64,000 bases of DNA from Caryophanales bacterium (GTDB lineage Bacteria > Bacillota > Bacilli > Bacillales > Amphibacillaceae), in NCBI GenBank assembly GCA_029257405.1, contig JARIBO010000008.1:37266-101265 (forward strand), given 5' to 3'. Made by a program: the position numbers and the translations under genes. The notes under the pieces are model-generated. The model was not told the DNA's origin and did no database searches. It worked only from the letters and a program-made list of their open reading frames with translations. Of this stretch, positions 28,259 through 62,420 are shown piece after piece. The stretch's first letter is position 1; each line of letters opens with the position of its first letter.

Positions 28259-29056
28259 TTAATAATTTTTATCTGGAGTATTTGGTTGAAAATCTATCGA
28301 CCTTAAATAATCACATATAATTGAAATAAACTTTTTATTTGGTGGACGTTTAATTAACTTATTCGTATACCCATAATTTTTAATCGCACTTTTTATAATT
28401 GCTTTATTTCCCCATGCTAATTCAATCGCATGTCGCATTGATCTTTCCACGTTTGCAGCTTCTGTTTGATAAATTTCAGCAACTACTGGGTATAATTCTT
28501 TAGTAACTGCATTTAATAATTCAGCCTCGTTATAAACTTTTAATATAGCCGTTTTCAAATAATCAAATCCACTAAGACTTGGTTTTATACCTAAATCAAT
28601 TAATAATTTAGAAATAACTCCATACATTTTATCATAAATCACATCCTGCTTAGTTAATTCTGATTTTTCTGATAATTTATCTCGATGTAAATTAATAGAA
28701 GTTGAGATTAACTTATCTATATCAAATGGTTTATTAATAATATATTTAACATCATAATCAATTATCCTTTTTATTGTTTTATCATTTGTTAACGCTGTCA
28801 TTATTATAATAGTTAAATCTTTTAAATTAGAATTTTCTTTAATAAAATCTAAGACTTCAAAACCTGCAACTTTTGGTAATAAGATATCCATAATTAGTAT
28901 ATCAGGTTTTGATTCTTTTAAACCTTCTATACACAAGTAGCCATCACTAGAAACATGAGTGATTTCAATATTATCATGCTTCTTTAAGCTTTCTAGCAAT
29001 AGCTGTTGCAATTTATTACTATTATCAGCTATTGCTATTTTTAAATTATTATTCAT
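28259..29056 (-). CDS. spo0A: Spo0A-like sporulation response regulator
   Basis: Receiver domain (PDILIMDILLP, IIIMTA, INKPFD) plus Spo0A-type C-terminal domain (GFDYLKTAILKVYNEAELLNAVTKELYPVVAEIYQTEAANVERSMRHAIELAW...NYGYT); next to recN as in Bacillus. Confidence 0.93.
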   Translation of the reverse strand: MNNNLKIAIADNSNKLQQLLLESLKKHDNIEITHVSSDGYLCIEGLKESKPDILIMDILLPKVAGFEVLDFIKENSNLKDLTIIIMTALTNDKTIKRIIDYDVKYIINKPFDIDKLISTSINLHRDKLSEKSELTKQDVIYDKMYGVISKLLIDLGIKPSLSGFDYLKTAILKVYNEAELLNAVTKELYPVVAEIYQTEAANVERSMRHAIELAWGNKAIIKSAIKNYGYTNKLIKRPPNKKFISIICDYLRSIDFQPNTPDKNY

Positions 29057-29086
29057 AACTTAAAATTTCTCCTCTCAATTTTCGTT

Positions 29087-30784
29087 TTATTTTTTCTTAT
29101 ATTTATTAGATAAATCAATTAAAGTTTTAGAATGCTCCATAACGGAGTCTGTCATTTTTGCTCCAGTCATCATTTTACTTAGCTCTATAACTTTATTATC
29201 AAGAGAGAGTTGGCTTACATTTGTTGTTGTTCTATTCTTTTTTTCTTCTTTTTTAATTAATAAATAATTATCAGACATAGCTGCTACTTGAGGTAAATGA
29301 GTAATACATAAGGTCTGGCTATTCATTGATACATCATACATTTTTTCAGCAATTGCTTGAGCTACTCTTCCACTCACACCTGTATCAATTTCATCAAAAA
29401 TAACTGTTGATATATTTTGGTGCTTAACAAAAATCTTTTTTAATATCAGCATAATTCGAGATAACTCTCCACCAGAAGCTACTTTCTCGAGTTGTTTTAA
29501 TGGTTCACCTAAATTTGTTGATAATAAGAAGTTTATTTTATCCAATCCATTTTCACTTATATCTTCTGAAGGATCAGAGGATAAAACGTTAAACTCCACA
29601 TCAAATTTAGCATTTTCTAAATATAAATCCTTTAATTCTAATTGCACTGTTTTAATTAATGTTTTCGCTATTTCTTTTCTTGAGCTTCTTAATTTTTTTC
29701 CAACTTCAATTACTTTAGTTGTATATTTGGCTATTTCATTCTCTAATTGTTCATTATGTATTTCTTTGTTTTCTAAAACTTCAATTTTTTGTTTAACTTC
29801 CTCGTAATATTCAATTATTTCGTTTACAGTCGTACCATATTTCTTTTTTAATCTAGCAATTTCATTTAACCGACTTTCCACTTCGTTTAATCTTGCTTCA
29901 TTAAATTGAATTTGTTCTTTATAGTCTCTAATTTGAAAACTTATTTCTTCTAAATTAAAGTAAAGACTAGTTAATTCTTCTGTTTTCTCTTTAATAAATG
30001 GGTCAAAGTCAGCTCCTTGTTGTAAAGCTGTTTGAGCAATATTTACCCATTCCAATCCTTTTTGATCACCATGAAGAGAATAATACGTTTCTTCTAAAGC
30101 GAGAAAGATTTTTTCAAAGTTAGCTAACTGAGTTTTTTCATCTTCTAATATCACGTCTTCATTTGGTTGAAGATCAGCTTCTTTTAATTCATTTGCTTGG
30201 AATAAATAAAGATCTAAACGTTGCGCTGCTTCTTGTTCATTTATAGCTAATTTATTATATTCTTGCTTATAATGCATAAGTTGTTTATATAAATCATGAT
30301 ATTGAGCTTTAATACTAGTAATTTCTTTTGAATTATATGCATCTAATAAATTGATATGAGCCTGTGAACTCATCAATTGATATGTGTCGTGTTGACTATG
30401 AATATCAACTAAATTATTTCCAAATTCTCTTAAAATCGTTAAGGTAACCAATTTTCCATTAATTCGACAGATTGATTTTCCTTTATCAGTAACAATTCGC
30501 TCTAAAACAACCATATTATCTGTTAAATCGATTCCATATTTATCTGCTAACAAAAAAAGATTAGACATATCATCAATAACAAATAAACCATTTAATTCTA
30601 GTTTACTCGCTCCATGTCTAATGTAATCGACTGACCCGCGACCACCTGATAAAAGATGAACTGCATCAATAATAATTGACTTACCAGCACCGGTTTCACC
30701 TGTTAAAACAGTTAATCCATTTTGAAAATTGACTGACAAATCTTCTATAATTGCAAAGTTTTTAATTGATAATTCGGTTAACAT
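29087..30784 (-). CDS. recN: DNA repair protein RecN
   Basis: LTGETGAGKSIIIDAV; IFDEIDTGVSGRVAQAIAEKM. Confidence 0.97.
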   Translation of the reverse strand: MLTELSIKNFAIIEDLSVNFQNGLTVLTGETGAGKSIIIDAVHLLSGGRGSVDYIRHGASKLELNGLFVIDDMSNLFLLADKYGIDLTDNMVVLERIVTDKGKSICRINGKLVTLTILREFGNNLVDIHSQHDTYQLMSSQAHINLLDAYNSKEITSIKAQYHDLYKQLMHYKQEYNKLAINEQEAAQRLDLYLFQANELKEADLQPNEDVILEDEKTQLANFEKIFLALEETYYSLHGDQKGLEWVNIAQTALQQGADFDPFIKEKTEELTSLYFNLEEISFQIRDYKEQIQFNEARLNEVESRLNEIARLKKKYGTTVNEIIEYYEEVKQKIEVLENKEIHNEQLENEIAKYTTKVIEVGKKLRSSRKEIAKTLIKTVQLELKDLYLENAKFDVEFNVLSSDPSEDISENGLDKINFLLSTNLGEPLKQLEKVASGGELSRIMLILKKIFVKHQNISTVIFDEIDTGVSGRVAQAIAEKMYDVSMNSQTLCITHLPQVAAMSDNYLLIKKEEKKNRTTTNVSQLSLDNKVIELSKMMTGAKMTDSVMEHSKTLIDLSNKYKKK

Positions 30785-30804: not shown

Positions 30805-31254
30805 TTATAGCATACTAATAAAACGTTCTTTAATTTCTACAGCATCGTCTTCAGTTCGACAAATTAGTAAACATGTGTCGTCTCCACAAATTGTTCCCAT
30901 AATTTCATTCCACTCTAAGTTATCTATTAGTGCTCCTACAGCATGAGCGTTTCCAGGTAATGTTTTTAAAACAATAAATAAAGAGGTATGATCAATTTTT
31001 ACAAATGCATCCATAATTAAGCGTTTTAATTTCTCATGTGGATTAAACTTTTGATCGGCTGGTAGGCTATACTTATAATTTCCAGTATTAGAAGGAACTT
31101 TAACTAGGTGCAATTCTTTAATATCACGTGAAACAGTTGCTTGTGTTACGTCAAAATCAGATCTTTTTAATTGATCGACTAACTCATCTTGAGTGTCAAT
31201 TTCTTTTTCAGTAATTAATTCTCTGATTTTAATATGTCGTTGTAATTTACTCAC
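30805..31254 (-). CDS. argR: arginine repressor ArgR/AhrC
   Basis: [26 protein letters not shown]. Confidence 0.96.
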
Positions 31255-31267
31255 ATATAAAACTCCT

Positions 31268-32077
31268 TTAATTTTTCTTCGTTAAATTAGCATGTGCATT
31301 TGCAACAATCTCTTGAACATTTAATTCATTTTTTTGCGAATCTTTGCCTAAAGATAAATGCGCTAAAAATTCAATGTTTCCTGCACCGCCAGTGATTGGA
31401 GAATACGTAATTTCATGGATAGTATAACCATTTTCTAAAATAAAGTTAGTAACTCGAGTCAATACTTTTTCATGTATTTTCTTATCTCTAATAATACCTT
31501 TTTTTCCTACTTCTTCTTTTCGCGCTTCAAACTGAGGTTTTATTAATGTTACAATATCACTGCCAGATTTTAATATTTCTTTTAGTACTGGTAAAATAAG
31601 TGATAATGATATAAAAGATACATCAATCATAGCAAACTCAGGTAACCCTTTAGAAAACACTTCAGGTTTTACATACCTAAAATTAGTTTTTTCCATAACT
31701 ATTACGCGTTCATCACTACGAATTTTCCAATCTAATTGATTATAACCCACATCAATTGCATAAATTAACTGAGCTCCATTTTGTAAGGCACAATCTGAAA
31801 AACCTCCTGTAGACGCACCTATATCTACCAAGACTTTATCTAATACTGAAATATCAAACTCTTTTAATGCTTTTTCTAATTTTAAACCTCCTCTACTTAC
31901 ATAAGGTAATTTTCCCTTTACATATAATGGTATATCATAATCATATTTAGTTCCAGCTTTATCCAATTGTATATTATCAGAATATACTTGACCTGCCATA
32001 ATTAATCTTTTTGCTTTTTCTCTCGTATCAATTAATTTTCTTTCAACTAATAAAACATCTAATCTCTCTTTAGCCAT
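31268..32077 (-). CDS. tlyA: TlyA family 23S/16S rRNA (cytidine-2'-O)-methyltransferase (YqxC)
   Basis: S4 domain plus [20 protein letters not shown] FtsJ-like SAM motif. Confidence 0.93.
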
Positions 32078-32093
32078 ATAATCTATCCTTATC

Positions 32094-32660
32094 TTAAAAT
32101 ACTTTTATTTTTAATTTAGATTCTAAAATATAAATGAACTTCCCAGCAATAAGAATAATCTGGGTCGAAGCATTTATAGCTAAATATTTTCCTATTGCTT
32201 TTCCACCAACTGTTAAAGCTGCTATTACACTTGTTAAAAATACAGATAGTATAATCGGAAAAATCGAATCTTCTTTTAACTCAGTTATATTTGTTATTTC
32301 TATTATTACTATCGTCAGTGCACTACCACTAACAATACCTGAGATATCACCTATAACATCATTACAAAAACTTGCAAACTTATCTGCATTTTTTGTAATT
32401 AAAACAGCTTCTTTTGCACCTTTTACTTTTTCTGCAGCCATCGCATTAAATGGTACTTCATCTGCTGCAGTTGAAGCGATTCCTAACATATCAAATAAAA
32501 TACCGACAATGACAATAATCAAAACAATTAATAATCCTAATATCCAAGATACTTTACTGAGTATTGATGATGAGACAATTGAAAAAATAGCCGCTAACAC
32601 AAATGTGATAACCGCTATGTATATTGAAAATTTAATTGAGCCTTTAAGTTTAGTATTCAT
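32094..32660 (-). CDS. oapA: DUF21-like multi-TM protein, candidate OLE-associated protein OapA
   Basis: 188 aa, about 4 hydrophobic segments, central GIASTAADEVPFNAMAAEKVKGAKEAVLITKNADKFASFCNDVIGDISGIVSGSA; starts 33 nt after the candidate OLE RNA. Confidence 0.72.
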   Translation of the reverse strand: MNTKLKGSIKFSIYIAVITFVLAAIFSIVSSSILSKVSWILGLLIVLIIVIVGILFDMLGIASTAADEVPFNAMAAEKVKGAKEAVLITKNADKFASFCNDVIGDISGIVSGSALTIVIIEITNITELKEDSIFPIILSVFLTSVIAALTVGGKAIGKYLAINASTQIILIAGKFIYILESKLKIKVF

Positions 32661-32693
32661 TATAAAACTCCAATTTTTTATCTTATTAAAAGC

Positions 32694-33285
32694 AATGAAA
32701 TGGTCATCCCAGAAGTTAAGACTACGGCTTAGGTCCAGCAGGTTTTCCCAGATAAGTACCTCATGTCGCCATCGAGGCAGTTCCCTTTTAAACTTATCTT
32801 AACGATGTCGCCATCAATTAGACTGGATTACCACTTAGTCCGTACTAGAATCCCTCTGCGATGTCATAAAATGAACAGTCTAGGAGATTTCCTCAGCAAA
32901 CTTTAGCTACTCCCTAGCCACTTTTGCAACACTAATTTCATAAAGATCAATCCCTCTTTAGTGGCCACTAAAAAAGAATCAATAAACTCTAATCCCTTTA
33001 GTGTCACTCAAGGCAGGCTACGCTGTGAATGAATTAATGTCATTCTACAGGTTCATACCCCATTCCATAGATATTTTTAATCTACGAGAGATGGGCCTCC
33101 GCGATCACTGGGTCAAACGCCCACATGCCATTGTGGATCGCCCAATAATCTTAACTCCCAGCATAAGCCCAAGGCTGGGCGCCTCAGGCAAACACAAGGA
33201 ACTTCATCGATATGCCCTTTGGCAGATTTTTAGGCCTGCCTTCAGAAGTAAAGGTTTGACTAGAATACTGCACCATTTCATTATT
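32694..33285 (-). ncRNA. ole: candidate OLE (Ornate Large Extremophilic) RNA
   Basis: About 590 nt, higher GC than flanks, no convincing ORF; closing stem AATGAAATGG (33273-33282) / CCATTTCATT (32694-32703); many internal helices and two GCGA GNRA-loop hairpins; lies between ispA and oapA-like/tlyA/argR/recN. Confidence 0.82.
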
Positions 33286-33291
33286 ATCTTT

Positions 33292-33319
33292 ATTATACCA
33301 TATATTTTAAAAAATAAGA
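33292..33319 (-). promoter_or_regulatory. candidate promoter of the OLE RNA (extended -10 TGgTATAAT, weak -35 TTCTTA, 17-nt spacer)
   Basis: Minus strand reads TTCTTA-ttttttaaaatatatgg-TATAAT, about 7 nt upstream of the inferred 5' stem. Confidence 0.6.
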
Positions 33320-33325
33320 ATATAA

Positions 33326-34207
33326 TTAATGATCTCGATTTCCAAAATACGCCATTAATTTAATTAACATATCTTTTTTAGCAGTTGTTTTATCAAGTTC
33401 TGCTTTTGCTTTTTCAATATAAATTTCTTTTTGTTTTATTGCTCCCTTTAAACCGAGCAAATTAGGAAACGTGCTTTTTTGATTTGATTCATCACTTCCA
33501 ACAGGTTTTCCAAGTTTAGATTCATCTCCTGTTACGTCTAAAATATCATCTTGAATTTGGAATATTAAACCTAAATAATAAGCAAAGTTTTTTAAATGAT
33601 CCATCTCTTCTTTTGGTGCGTTCGCTAAGTATGCACCTGTCATAATTGCAAACTTAATCAACTCACCTGTTTTATATTCATGGATTTGTTCTAACTTTTC
33701 TAAACTAACTTTTTCTTTTTCAGCTTGCATATCGTATATTTGTCCGCCGACCATACCTGTAGGACCACTACATTTTGCAAGTAATTTAACTATACTTACT
33801 TTTTCTTCGTCTGATAGTAAATCGTCATCAGTAATGATTTCAAAACTATAAGTAAGTAATGCATCTCCTGCTAAAATTGCAGTTGCTTCGTCGAATTTTT
33901 TATGGTTAGTTTCTTTACCACGTCTAAAATCATCATCGTCCATAGCAGGTAAATCATCATGAATAAGTGAGTATGTATGAATCATTTCAAGTGCAGAAAT
34001 AGATGACATTACTTTTTGATTGTGTGCTTTGTATGCTTCAAAGCTTAACATAAGTAATACTGGTCTTAACCTTTTACCACCTGCCATGAGTGAATAGAGC
34101 ATCGAATCTTTTAATTCTTTTGGAGCATTTAATTTTTCTATGTTTATTTGCAGTTCTTTTTCGACTATTAATTTTTTTTCAATTAGATACTGGTCTAAAT
34201 TTTTCAC
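33326..34207 (-). CDS. ispA: polyprenyl (farnesyl/geranyl) diphosphate synthase
   Basis: SLIHDDLPAMDDDDFRRG and FQIQDDILDVTGD DDxxD motifs. Confidence 0.95.
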   Translation of the reverse strand: MKNLDQYLIEKKLIVEKELQINIEKLNAPKELKDSMLYSLMAGGKRLRPVLLMLSFEAYKAHNQKVMSSISALEMIHTYSLIHDDLPAMDDDDFRRGKETNHKKFDEATAILAGDALLTYSFEIITDDDLLSDEEKVSIVKLLAKCSGPTGMVGGQIYDMQAEKEKVSLEKLEQIHEYKTGELIKFAIMTGAYLANAPKEEMDHLKNFAYYLGLIFQIQDDILDVTGDESKLGKPVGSDESNQKSTFPNLLGLKGAIKQKEIYIEKAKAELDKTTAKKDMLIKLMAYFGNRDH

Positions 34208-34213
34208 CTTTTA

Positions 34214-34471
34214 CTATTCCTCCTGCAAATCAAATAATGTGGGTTGATTATTTTCATCTAATATTTCAGTCATTTTCTTTTCGGCGTTTGATAAAACTTT
34301 ATCACATATTTTTGATAATTCCATACCTTTTTCATAATACTTAATTGCTTTTTCAATAGGTACATCTGGTTCTTCAAGTTTTTTTACAATACTATCTAAT
34401 TGTTCTAAAGCTTCTTCAAAAGATAATTCTTTATTTTCCAATTTTTTTGCCCCTCTTTTGAGTAATTTCAC
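34214..34471 (-). CDS. xseB: exodeoxyribonuclease VII small subunit
   Basis: LSFEEALEQLDSIVKKLEEPDVPIEKAIKYYEKGM. Confidence 0.94.
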   Translation of the reverse strand: MKLLKRGAKKLENKELSFEEALEQLDSIVKKLEEPDVPIEKAIKYYEKGMELSKICDKVLSNAEKKMTEILDENNQPTLFDLQEE

Positions 34472-35786
34472 ATGATAAGATACCGTCTTTTAATTGAATG
34501 TCTATTTCATCGTTTACTTCAACTTCTTCAACTGATTTAATGAGGCTTTTATCCTCTGATTTATAAGCTAAAGAGAAACCTCTACTCATCGTAGTTAATG
34601 GATTTAATAAAATTAATTTATCAACTGCCGACGTAAAGTTATTTTCATGGTAAGTATAAATACGCTCTAAATTTCGTTTGCTGGATTCGTTTAATCTATT
34701 TAAATTTTCTTTTGCTTCAATTAATTTCTTTTCAGGATGTAAAAACTTTAAATTTTGTTTTACTATTGAAAACTCATTTTGTTTATTTTTTATAAGTGTT
34801 TTAAATGTGTTTTTAAAGTTATCAGTTGTTTGATCTAATTGTTGTTCTTTATTTAAAAATAATTGCTTTGGGTTTCTAAATATATACGATTGTTTTAAAT
34901 CATCTAATTTATTTATATTTATATTTAATAATTGAGAAACTGACCTTAACAATCTCTCTTTATATTGATTATTATTCGAAATAAGCTCGATTAATGAAGG
35001 TACTGCTAATTCAGCTGCTCCTGTTGGTGTTGGCGCTCTTAAATCTGATATATAATCACTAATTGTAATATCAGTCTCATGGCCAATTCCTGAAATAATA
35101 GGGATTTTTGATTTATAGATTGCTTCAGCAACAGCAATATCATTAAATGCCCATAAATCTTCTATTGATCCACCACCACGTCCTAATATAACAGAGTCGA
35201 ATTCCCCTAATTTGTTCGCTCGATTTATTGATTCAACAATCGAATCAATTGCTAAATCACCCTGGACTAGTGTAGGAATAATCGTCGTTTTGACAATCGG
35301 ATAACGTCTTTTAATCGTAATTAAAATATCTCTTACTGCTGCCCCTGTAGGTGATGTGATTATAGCTATATGACTTGGATATTTAGGTATTGGTTTTTTG
35401 TTTTCTTCATTAAAATAACCTGCTTTATTTAATTTTTCTTTTAATTGTTCAAAAGCTAAATAGAGAGCCCCAACACCATCGGGCTCCATACTTCTAATAT
35501 ATAATTGATATTGTCCGTGTGCTTCATATACACCTATATTACCTGTGATTAAGACTTCCATACCATTCTCAGGAGTGAATTTTAAATTACGATTATTACC
35601 AGCAAACATAACAGCTTTAATTTGAGATTGATTATCTTTTATCGTTAAATACATATGCCCACGACTATGATGGTTAAAGTTAGATATCTCACCTTTAATA
35701 TATACAGTCTGTAAATGTGGATCAATTTCAATTTTACGTTTAATATACTTTGTTAAGGCAGAAACGGATAAATATTTATTTTCCAA
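34431..35786 (-). CDS. xseA: exodeoxyribonuclease VII large subunit
   Basis: KGEISNFNHHSRGHMYLTIKD; SGIGHETDITISDYISDLRAPTPTGAAE. Confidence 0.96.
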   Translation of the reverse strand: MENKYLSVSALTKYIKRKIEIDPHLQTVYIKGEISNFNHHSRGHMYLTIKDNQSQIKAVMFAGNNRNLKFTPENGMEVLITGNIGVYEAHGQYQLYIRSMEPDGVGALYLAFEQLKEKLNKAGYFNEENKKPIPKYPSHIAIITSPTGAAVRDILITIKRRYPIVKTTIIPTLVQGDLAIDSIVESINRANKLGEFDSVILGRGGGSIEDLWAFNDIAVAEAIYKSKIPIISGIGHETDITISDYISDLRAPTPTGAAELAVPSLIELISNNNQYKERLLRSVSQLLNININKLDDLKQSYIFRNPKQLFLNKEQQLDQTTDNFKNTFKTLIKNKQNEFSIVKQNLKFLHPEKKLIEAKENLNRLNESSKRNLERIYTYHENNFTSAVDKLILLNPLTTMSRGFSLAYKSEDKSLIKSVEEVEVNDEIDIQLKDGILSCEITQKRGKKIGK

Positions 35787-38495: not shown

Positions 38496-38975
38496 TTATT
38501 TCGTTTTTACTTTGAATAGTGGCTGACCATATTCTACTAAATCGCCATCATTCACAAGAATTTCCACGATCTCACCGTTTAACTCTGCTTCAATTTCATT
38601 AAATAATTTCATTGCTTCTACGATACAAACAATCGTTTCATCATTTACTTTGTCGCCTACTGCAACATAAGGATCACTTTCTGGTGATGGCTTTTGATAA
38701 AAAGTTCCAACCATAGGTGATACAATTTCTTCAATTCCTGCATCATCTTCAACACTATCAGCAGGCACTTCTTTTTCTTTTTTTGGTTCTGCTTTAGCAA
38801 TAGCCGCTGCAGGTATTGTAGGTGCAACTTCAACAACAGGTGTTTCAACTTGAGTTGTACCAGTTGCTGTTTTTTTAATTTTTATTTTTGAATCATCTTT
38901 CTCATAAGAAAATTCATTAATTGTTGACTTATCTATTAAACGAATCAATTCACGCATTTCTTGAACTTTAAACAT
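38496..38975 (-). CDS. accB: acetyl-CoA carboxylase biotin carboxyl carrier protein
   Basis: [16 protein letters not shown] biotinylation motif. Confidence 0.96.
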
Positions 38976-39127: not shown

Positions 39128-39691
39128 TTATGCATTATAACGTGAAACATAATTTCCATCACTTGTACTAATTACAAGAACATCCCCTTTATTTATAAAT
39201 AAAGGTACTTGCACTACTAAACCTGTTTCTAGTGTTGCTGCCTTAGAGCCTCCACTTACAGTATCACCTTTTAACCCTGGTTCAGTTTCTACAACTTCTA
39301 ATTCAACGTTTTTAGGTAGGTTGATCCCTAATACTTCACCTTCAAAAATAATTACATCTACTTCCATGCTTTCTTTAATATATTCAAGTTCGTTTGCAAT
39401 TTGGTCTGTTTGTAACTCTATTTGATTGTATGTATTAACATCCATAAAAGTATGCGTTGAACCAGCTGCATATAAATATTGCATTTTATTATGTTCAATA
39501 TGAGCACGTTTTACACGTTCCCCAGCACGAAATGTTTTTTCTTGTATATTATTATTTCTTAAGTTACGTAATTTTGTCCTAACAAAAGCTGCACCTTTAC
39601 CTGGTTTAACATGTTGAAACTCAATTACTTGCCAAATATTATTATCGTATTCTACCGTTGTTCCTGTTCTAAAATCATTTACTGATATCAT
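39128..39691 (-). CDS. efp: elongation factor P
   Basis: [44 protein letters not shown]. Confidence 0.98.
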
Positions 39692-61997: not shown

Positions 61998-62070
61998 TGG
62001 CTCAAGACGGAATCGAACCGCCGACACAAGGATTTTCAGTCCTTTGCTCTACCGACTGAGCTATTGAGCC
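61998..62070 (-). tRNA. tRNA-Phe (GAA)
   Basis: GGCTCAATAGCTCAGTCGGTAGAGCAAAGGACTGAAAATCC...GGTTCGATTCC...TTGAGCCA. Confidence 0.95.
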
Positions 62071-62074
62071 GATA

Positions 62075-62164
62075 AGGAGGAAGAGGGATTCGAACCCCCG
62101 CGGGCTTTGACACCCCTGTTGGTTTTCAAGACCAATCCCTTCAGCCGGACTTGGGTATTCCTCC
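62075..62164 (-). tRNA. tRNA-Ser (TGA)
   Basis: GGAGGAATACCCAAGTCCGGCTGAAGGGATTGGTCTTGAAAACCAA...long variable arm...GGGTTCGAATCCCTCTTCCTCC. Confidence 0.93.
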
Positions 62165-62176
62165 AAATATTATAAG

Positions 62177-62250
62177 TGGACCCTGAAGGACTCGAACCTT
62201 CGACCGATCGGTTATGAGCCGATAGCTCTAACCAACTGAGCTAAGGGTCC
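62177..62250 (-). tRNA. tRNA with CAT anticodon, most like tRNA-Ile2 (lysidine-modified)
   Basis: GGACCCTTAGCTCAGTTGGTTAGAGCTATCGGCTCATAACCGATCGG...; body resembles Bacillus tRNA-Ile(CAU). Confidence 0.85.
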
Positions 62251-62267
62251 GTGTAATATAATAATGG

Positions 62268-62341
62268 TAGCGGCGGAGGGAATTGAACCCCCGACCTTTC
62301 GGGTATGAACCGAACGCTCTAGCCAGCTGAGCTACACCGCC
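62268..62341 (-). tRNA. tRNA-Met elongator (CAT)
   Basis: GGCGGTGTAGCTCAGCTGGCTAGAGCGTTCGGTTCATACCCG... Confidence 0.9.
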
Positions 62342-62345
62342 ATGT

Positions 62346-62420
62346 TGGCTCCGCAGGTAGGATTCGAACCTACGACCGATCGGTTAACAGCCGATTGCTC
62401 TACCACTGAGCTACTGCGGA
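62346..62420 (-). tRNA. tRNA-Asn (GTT), CCA encoded
   Basis: TCCGCAGTAGCTCAGTGGTAGAGCAATCGGCTGTTAACCGAT...CTGCGGAGCCA. Confidence 0.94.

Follow-up and report, generated by a model that had tools for sequence, protein, structure and literature searches.

A very probable full-length OLE RNA gene, with its partner genes, in a Pseudogracilibacillus species

Described OLE systems and the RNA of this locus

OLE is a stress RNA of bacteria that is large, conserved and associated with the membrane. Published accounts describe it as a dimer that is located at the membrane together with OapA and has OapB, OapC and bS21 as further binding partners; it influences the responses to Mg2+, cold, ethanol and carbon source as well as Mn2+-related ones (PMC12265935, PMC10898510, PMC9723947, PMC12286853). 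Published profiling ties OLE positively to sporulation genes and negatively to MpfA, the latter as an anticorrelation (PMC11332333). The described systems closest to the locus presented here are the OLE RNA of the Halalkalibacterium halodurans type (RF01071), the variant 1 and variant 2 OLE RNAs known from the gut bacteria TANB77 and RF39 (PMC11332333) and the MpfA/CorB/CNNM magnesium exporters (PF01595). With the H. halodurans type, the locus and its host share the full-length structure, the conserved nucleotides, homologues of OapA, OapB and OapC, and the order xseAB-ispA-ole-oapA-tlyA-argR-recN. They differ from it in the lack of dxs between oapA and tlyA, in one peripheral stem that is about 10 nt shorter, and in a host that apparently does not sporulate.

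The Rfam OLE model RF01071 matched the minus strand of the window (the whole stretch of 64,000 nucleotides that was analysed) at 33292-32684, with a score of 499.1 bits against a gathering score of 50 (cmscan, E 2e-143), and the match spans all model positions from 1 to 616. The resulting RNA gene of 609 nt (32684..33292) is slightly longer than the interval 32694-33285, in which the first-pass annotation had recognised OLE, proposing a search of 32650-33330 on the minus strand with the Rfam model; the significant match bears out that identification. The gene is present as a single copy in the host genome, 228 of the 249 conserved (upper-case) consensus positions are identical, and 147 of the 155 modelled pairs are standard. 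The high score, the full length, the correct neighbourhood and the adjacent oapA decisively support the identity of the RNA. Therefore, the stretch very probably represents a complete OLE RNA gene, accompanied by the standard partner genes, in a Pseudogracilibacillus species, and it is an ordinary further member in a family rich in OLE. The variant 1 and 2 RNAs resemble it in their small-genome hosts and shortened peripheral stems; the complete match to the model and the presence of OapB and OapC homologues, however, place it with the full-length type. Assignment to these variants, in which P7-P9 are shortened or P7/P8 missing and the OapB site is often missing, was rejected, because only one stem is clearly shortened and an OapB gene is present. 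No OLE was found in phage records.

The earlier description of about 590 nt without a credible gene also held, as the overlapping open reading frames of at least 60 aa on the plus strand (32134-32802 and 33001-33363) are antisense to OLE, apparently spurious, and were rejected as coding. The G+C content is raised as claimed, with 0.43 in 32694-33285 against 0.29 in both flanks and 0.316 in the whole window, and only 0.6% of 600-nt segments are as G+C-rich; the count of 32/60 given for 33121-33180 is exact.

The 10-bp stem said to close the segment is present and perfect, and reads on the minus strand AATGAAATGG at 33282-33273 and CCATTTCATT at 32703-32694. It grows to 11 bp by addition of the pair 33272/32704, with the 5' arm at 33272..33282 and the 3' arm, which marks roughly where the structured RNA ends on its 3' side, at 32694..32704. 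This stem covaries although the Rfam match leaves both arms unpaired: in 45 relatives it is 86% paired, both sides are changed at 7 of the 11 pairs, pairing drops when the arms are slid, and both sides are changed in 36 cells versus 16 in shuffles. The three outermost pairs are largely specific to the host. Among the four internal helices proposed earlier, AGATAAGT/ACTTATCT, CCACA/TGTGG and GGCAG/CTGCC are real OLE helices, but GCGATC/GATCGC was rejected, as it does not belong to the consensus fold and relatives do not conserve its 3' half. A MAFFT alignment of 45 sequences, made independently of the RF01071 model, showed both sides changed at 94 pairs of the OLE helices, with 87.7% of the helix cells paired compared with 39-46% when slid. 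The shortened peripheral stem lies at 33056..33089 (minus strand), and its difference from the relatives is visible as alignment gaps in columns 225-234. A generic promoter/terminator scan revealed no terminator-like site near the 3' end of OLE, and this end is therefore probably made by processing.

Transcription of OLE

Directly upstream of the RNA, a conserved extended -10 block, TGG-TATAAT, is located at 33292..33300 on the minus strand (TG at 33300-33299, TATAAT at 33297-33292), for which a start at about 33285, three nucleotides before the terminal stem, may be inferred. The pattern TGnTAnnnT occurs upstream of OLE in 49 of 49 loci and in 0-14 of 49 control stretches, and the perfect TATAAT in 34 of 49 loci versus 2.3 expected in shuffles and 0-1 in control stretches, although the loci are mutually related and the counts hence non-independent. 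Its position is also conserved, as 44 of the 54 occurrences of TGnTAnnnT within 90 nt begin 23-26 nt before the TGGT anchor. The generic promoter scan gave 13 sites against 12.7 expected in shuffles, i.e. no excess, and was thus uninformative, for which reason the assignment of the block as a promoter, with predicted activity, is based on its conservation across species. No statement on an OLE promoter was found in the parts of the published OLE descriptions that were covered, which do not include the original description of 2006.

Alternatively, OLE could arise exclusively from transcription that reads through from the ispA operon, in which case the TGnTATAAT block would not be a promoter. 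H. halodurans transcribes the OLE cluster as one polycistronic RNA (PMC12265935), which agrees with this explanation and means that a dedicated promoter may be part of the story only. The -35 box of the window is weak (TTCTTA, 3/6), and the lack of excess sites in the generic scan points in the same direction. Such exclusive read-through is nevertheless rather unlikely, since the block is near-fixed in both position and sequence at all OLE loci compared, in contrast to the control stretches. For the whole family, the putative promoter block predicts an OLE transcription start that can be tested.

Gene neighbourhood, partner proteins and host

The genes on the minus strand are arranged in the order nusB, folD, xseA, xseB, ispA, OLE, oapA, tlyA, argR, recN and a spo0A homologue. 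They include xseA (34431..35786; TIGR00237, 498.2 bits), xseB (34214..34471; TIGR01280, 75.1 bits) and ispA, encoding farnesyl diphosphate synthase (33326..34207; NF045485, 399.9 bits), upstream of the RNA. Downstream of it lie oapA, which encodes a 188-aa membrane protein recognised by identity to ole-linked OapA (32094..32660), and, directly after it, a gene of the tlyA rRNA methyltransferase family (31268..32077; TIGR00478, 288.6 bits), followed by argR (30805..31254; NF003281, 262.1 bits) and recN (29087..30784; TIGR00634, 535.7 bits). The xseB-ispA-tlyA-argR-recN neighbourhood with adjoining oapA, on which the OLE proposal had drawn, was thus found, while the optional dxs is missing between oapA and tlyA (32077-32094), an arrangement shared by 29 of 36 distinct named relatives according to the length of the oapA-tlyA gap, with loci L029 and L030 counted once. 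In the genus members searched, HMG-CoA reductase is present and no convincing DXS was found; therefore, isoprenoids are probably made via mevalonate in this genus, although ispA remains in the OLE cluster. Elsewhere in the window, a cluster of five tRNA genes occupies 61998-62420 on the minus strand.

The oapA reading frame is intact and keeps the invariant motifs, and its product is 53-74% identical to the ole-linked OapA of nearly all relatives, the lowest value being 42%. Searches of OapA against Pfam and NCBIfam, and of its profile against PDB sequences, gave no match. An AlphaFold2 model of the protein (mean pLDDT 81.5) is predicted to be all-helical, and its top three PDB fold matches are the CNNM protein MtCorB, with non-significant E values of 0.17-0.88, which is consistent with a CNNM-like fold rather than proof of it. 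PF01595 also gave marginal matches in the OapA of 15 relatives, one of which exceeds the cut-off. Unlike the MpfA/CorB/CNNM exporters, however, OapA is too small to hold a CBS and a CorC domain and is linked with an RNA. Homologues of the other partners, which are common but not universal, are encoded away from the OLE locus, on contig C68: the best PDB match of the OapB homologue is 7k9b, OLE-associated protein B (E 4e-34), and the YbxF/OapC homologue, located between the end of rpoC and rpsL, has YbxF-type L7Ae-like proteins as its best PDB matches.

The host (2.26 Mb, 74 contigs, 96.7% complete) belongs to Pseudogracilibacillus, a genus placed by NCBI in the family Bacillaceae. A midpoint-rooted tree of OapA, TlyA and ArgR, comprising OLE-bearing taxa only, groups the window with P. 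auburnensis and Ca. P. intestinigallinarum with a support of 0.98. The two congeneric genomes G001 and G005 correspond to Ca. P. intestinigallinarum and P. auburnensis DSM 28556, as the contig and coordinates of OLE in each coincide with those in the genomes G062 and G066, to which loci L003 and L007 belong. The first-pass annotation had seen a Staphylococcaceae-like host and hence an extension of the OLE range to relatives of pathogens. Only the RNA part of this proposal holds: membership of the same genus as the two named species, the tree and a Spo0A homologue encoded in the window refute the placement and make a Staphylococcaceae host for this OLE gene extremely improbable. Spo0A is not known from Staphylococcaceae. 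Nor would a pathogen-related host be new, because OLE, common in the family of the present host, has already been described from Clostridium botulinum and C. acetobutylicum (PMC12265935, PMC12286853). It could further be considered that the gene is a decaying remnant in a shrinking genome, as the genome is small, other functions have been lost, one peripheral stem is shortened and ole-oapA has been lost from a congener. Against this stand the 499 bits with nearly all conserved positions and standard pairs kept, the intact oapA with its invariant motifs and the intact promoter block, and decay is accordingly very unlikely.

OLE, sporulation and metal homeostasis in Pseudogracilibacillus

Of 61 related genomes, 48 contain OLE together with OapA and 13 contain neither (Fisher p 1.5e-13, uncorrected for phylogeny), and OapB is present in 47 of the 48 genomes with OLE versus 5 of the 13 without it. 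Full-length CNNM copies number 1.6 on average in genomes with OLE, compared with 2.4 in those lacking it (Mann-Whitney p 0.002, uncorrected for relatedness), which agrees with the published OLE/MpfA anticorrelation (PMC11332333). In the host assembly of 74 contigs, no CNNM/MpfA (PF01595) protein was found above threshold, and zero CNNM copies alongside OLE were counted in five genomes, the host among them.

Within the genus, the host keeps OLE without the core spore genes spoIVA, spoIVB and spoIIIAA-AH, and the congener G003 (98% complete) shows the reverse. In G003, ispA runs straight into tlyA (L070:3889-5666), ole-oapA has been cleanly lost, no OapB was found and one CNNM gene is present; SpoIVA is retained, as are a SpoIVB-like gene beside recN and, between efp and accB, a spoIIIA-like block. 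The absence of OLE from G006 was not counted as a loss, as its assembly is 80% complete and also without tlyA. Targeted family searches gave no SpoIVA above threshold in the host (19.5 bits), and G006 is much alike. The host efp (39128-39691) adjoins accB (38496-38975) at a distance of about 150 nt, and the spoIIIA-like block present between these genes in G001, G002, G003 and G005 is missing; similarly, at 28259-30784 recN adjoins spo0A, and the spoIVB-like gene located between them in G001, G004 and G005 is missing there. The names spoIIIA and spoIVB were given from position, gene number, size and sequence reading, without a profile search. As the absences in the host come from targeted family searches and synteny in a fragmented assembly of 96.7% completeness, a gene counted as absent may be missing from the assembly. 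The host Spo0A shares just 33-35% identity with its counterparts in three congeners, which in the same alignment are far more similar among themselves, and it falls below the TIGR02875 cut-off (178.6 vs 200); therefore, it may be decaying or re-used. Judged from its gene content, the host is apparently incapable of sporulation, and OLE would thus be maintained in the absence of sporulation, and sporulation genes in the absence of OLE, in a dissociation that comprises two genomes and the sampled spore genes.

OLE of the host would have a promoter of its own, the conserved extended -10 block, perhaps supplemented by read-through from xseA-xseB-ispA. The terminal stem of 8-11 bp would close the RNA, which would fold into the OLE structure. 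By analogy with the published work, it would dimerise, and OapA, a small membrane protein similar to CNNM magnesium transporters, would anchor it at the cell membrane, with OapB and OapC/YbxF bound to it. Such a complex may aid the handling of divalent metal (Mg2+/Mn2+) and the response to cold, solvent and carbon-source stress, as in H. halodurans, and it would be the only CNNM-like metal-handling device in the host. The chances are about even that the full proposal is correct, namely that OLE is doubly dissociated from sporulation, as the host and G003 suggest, and persists here as the sole CNNM-like device of metal homeostasis with its own promoter.

Summarizing, with core spore genes and MpfA-type genes both apparently gone and OLE kept, the host may serve as a natural experiment on the role of this RNA. 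Three congeners (G001, G004 and G005) combine OLE with one CNNM gene; despite them, the contrast between the host and G003 would favour metal homeostasis over sporulation as what retains OLE in Pseudogracilibacillus.
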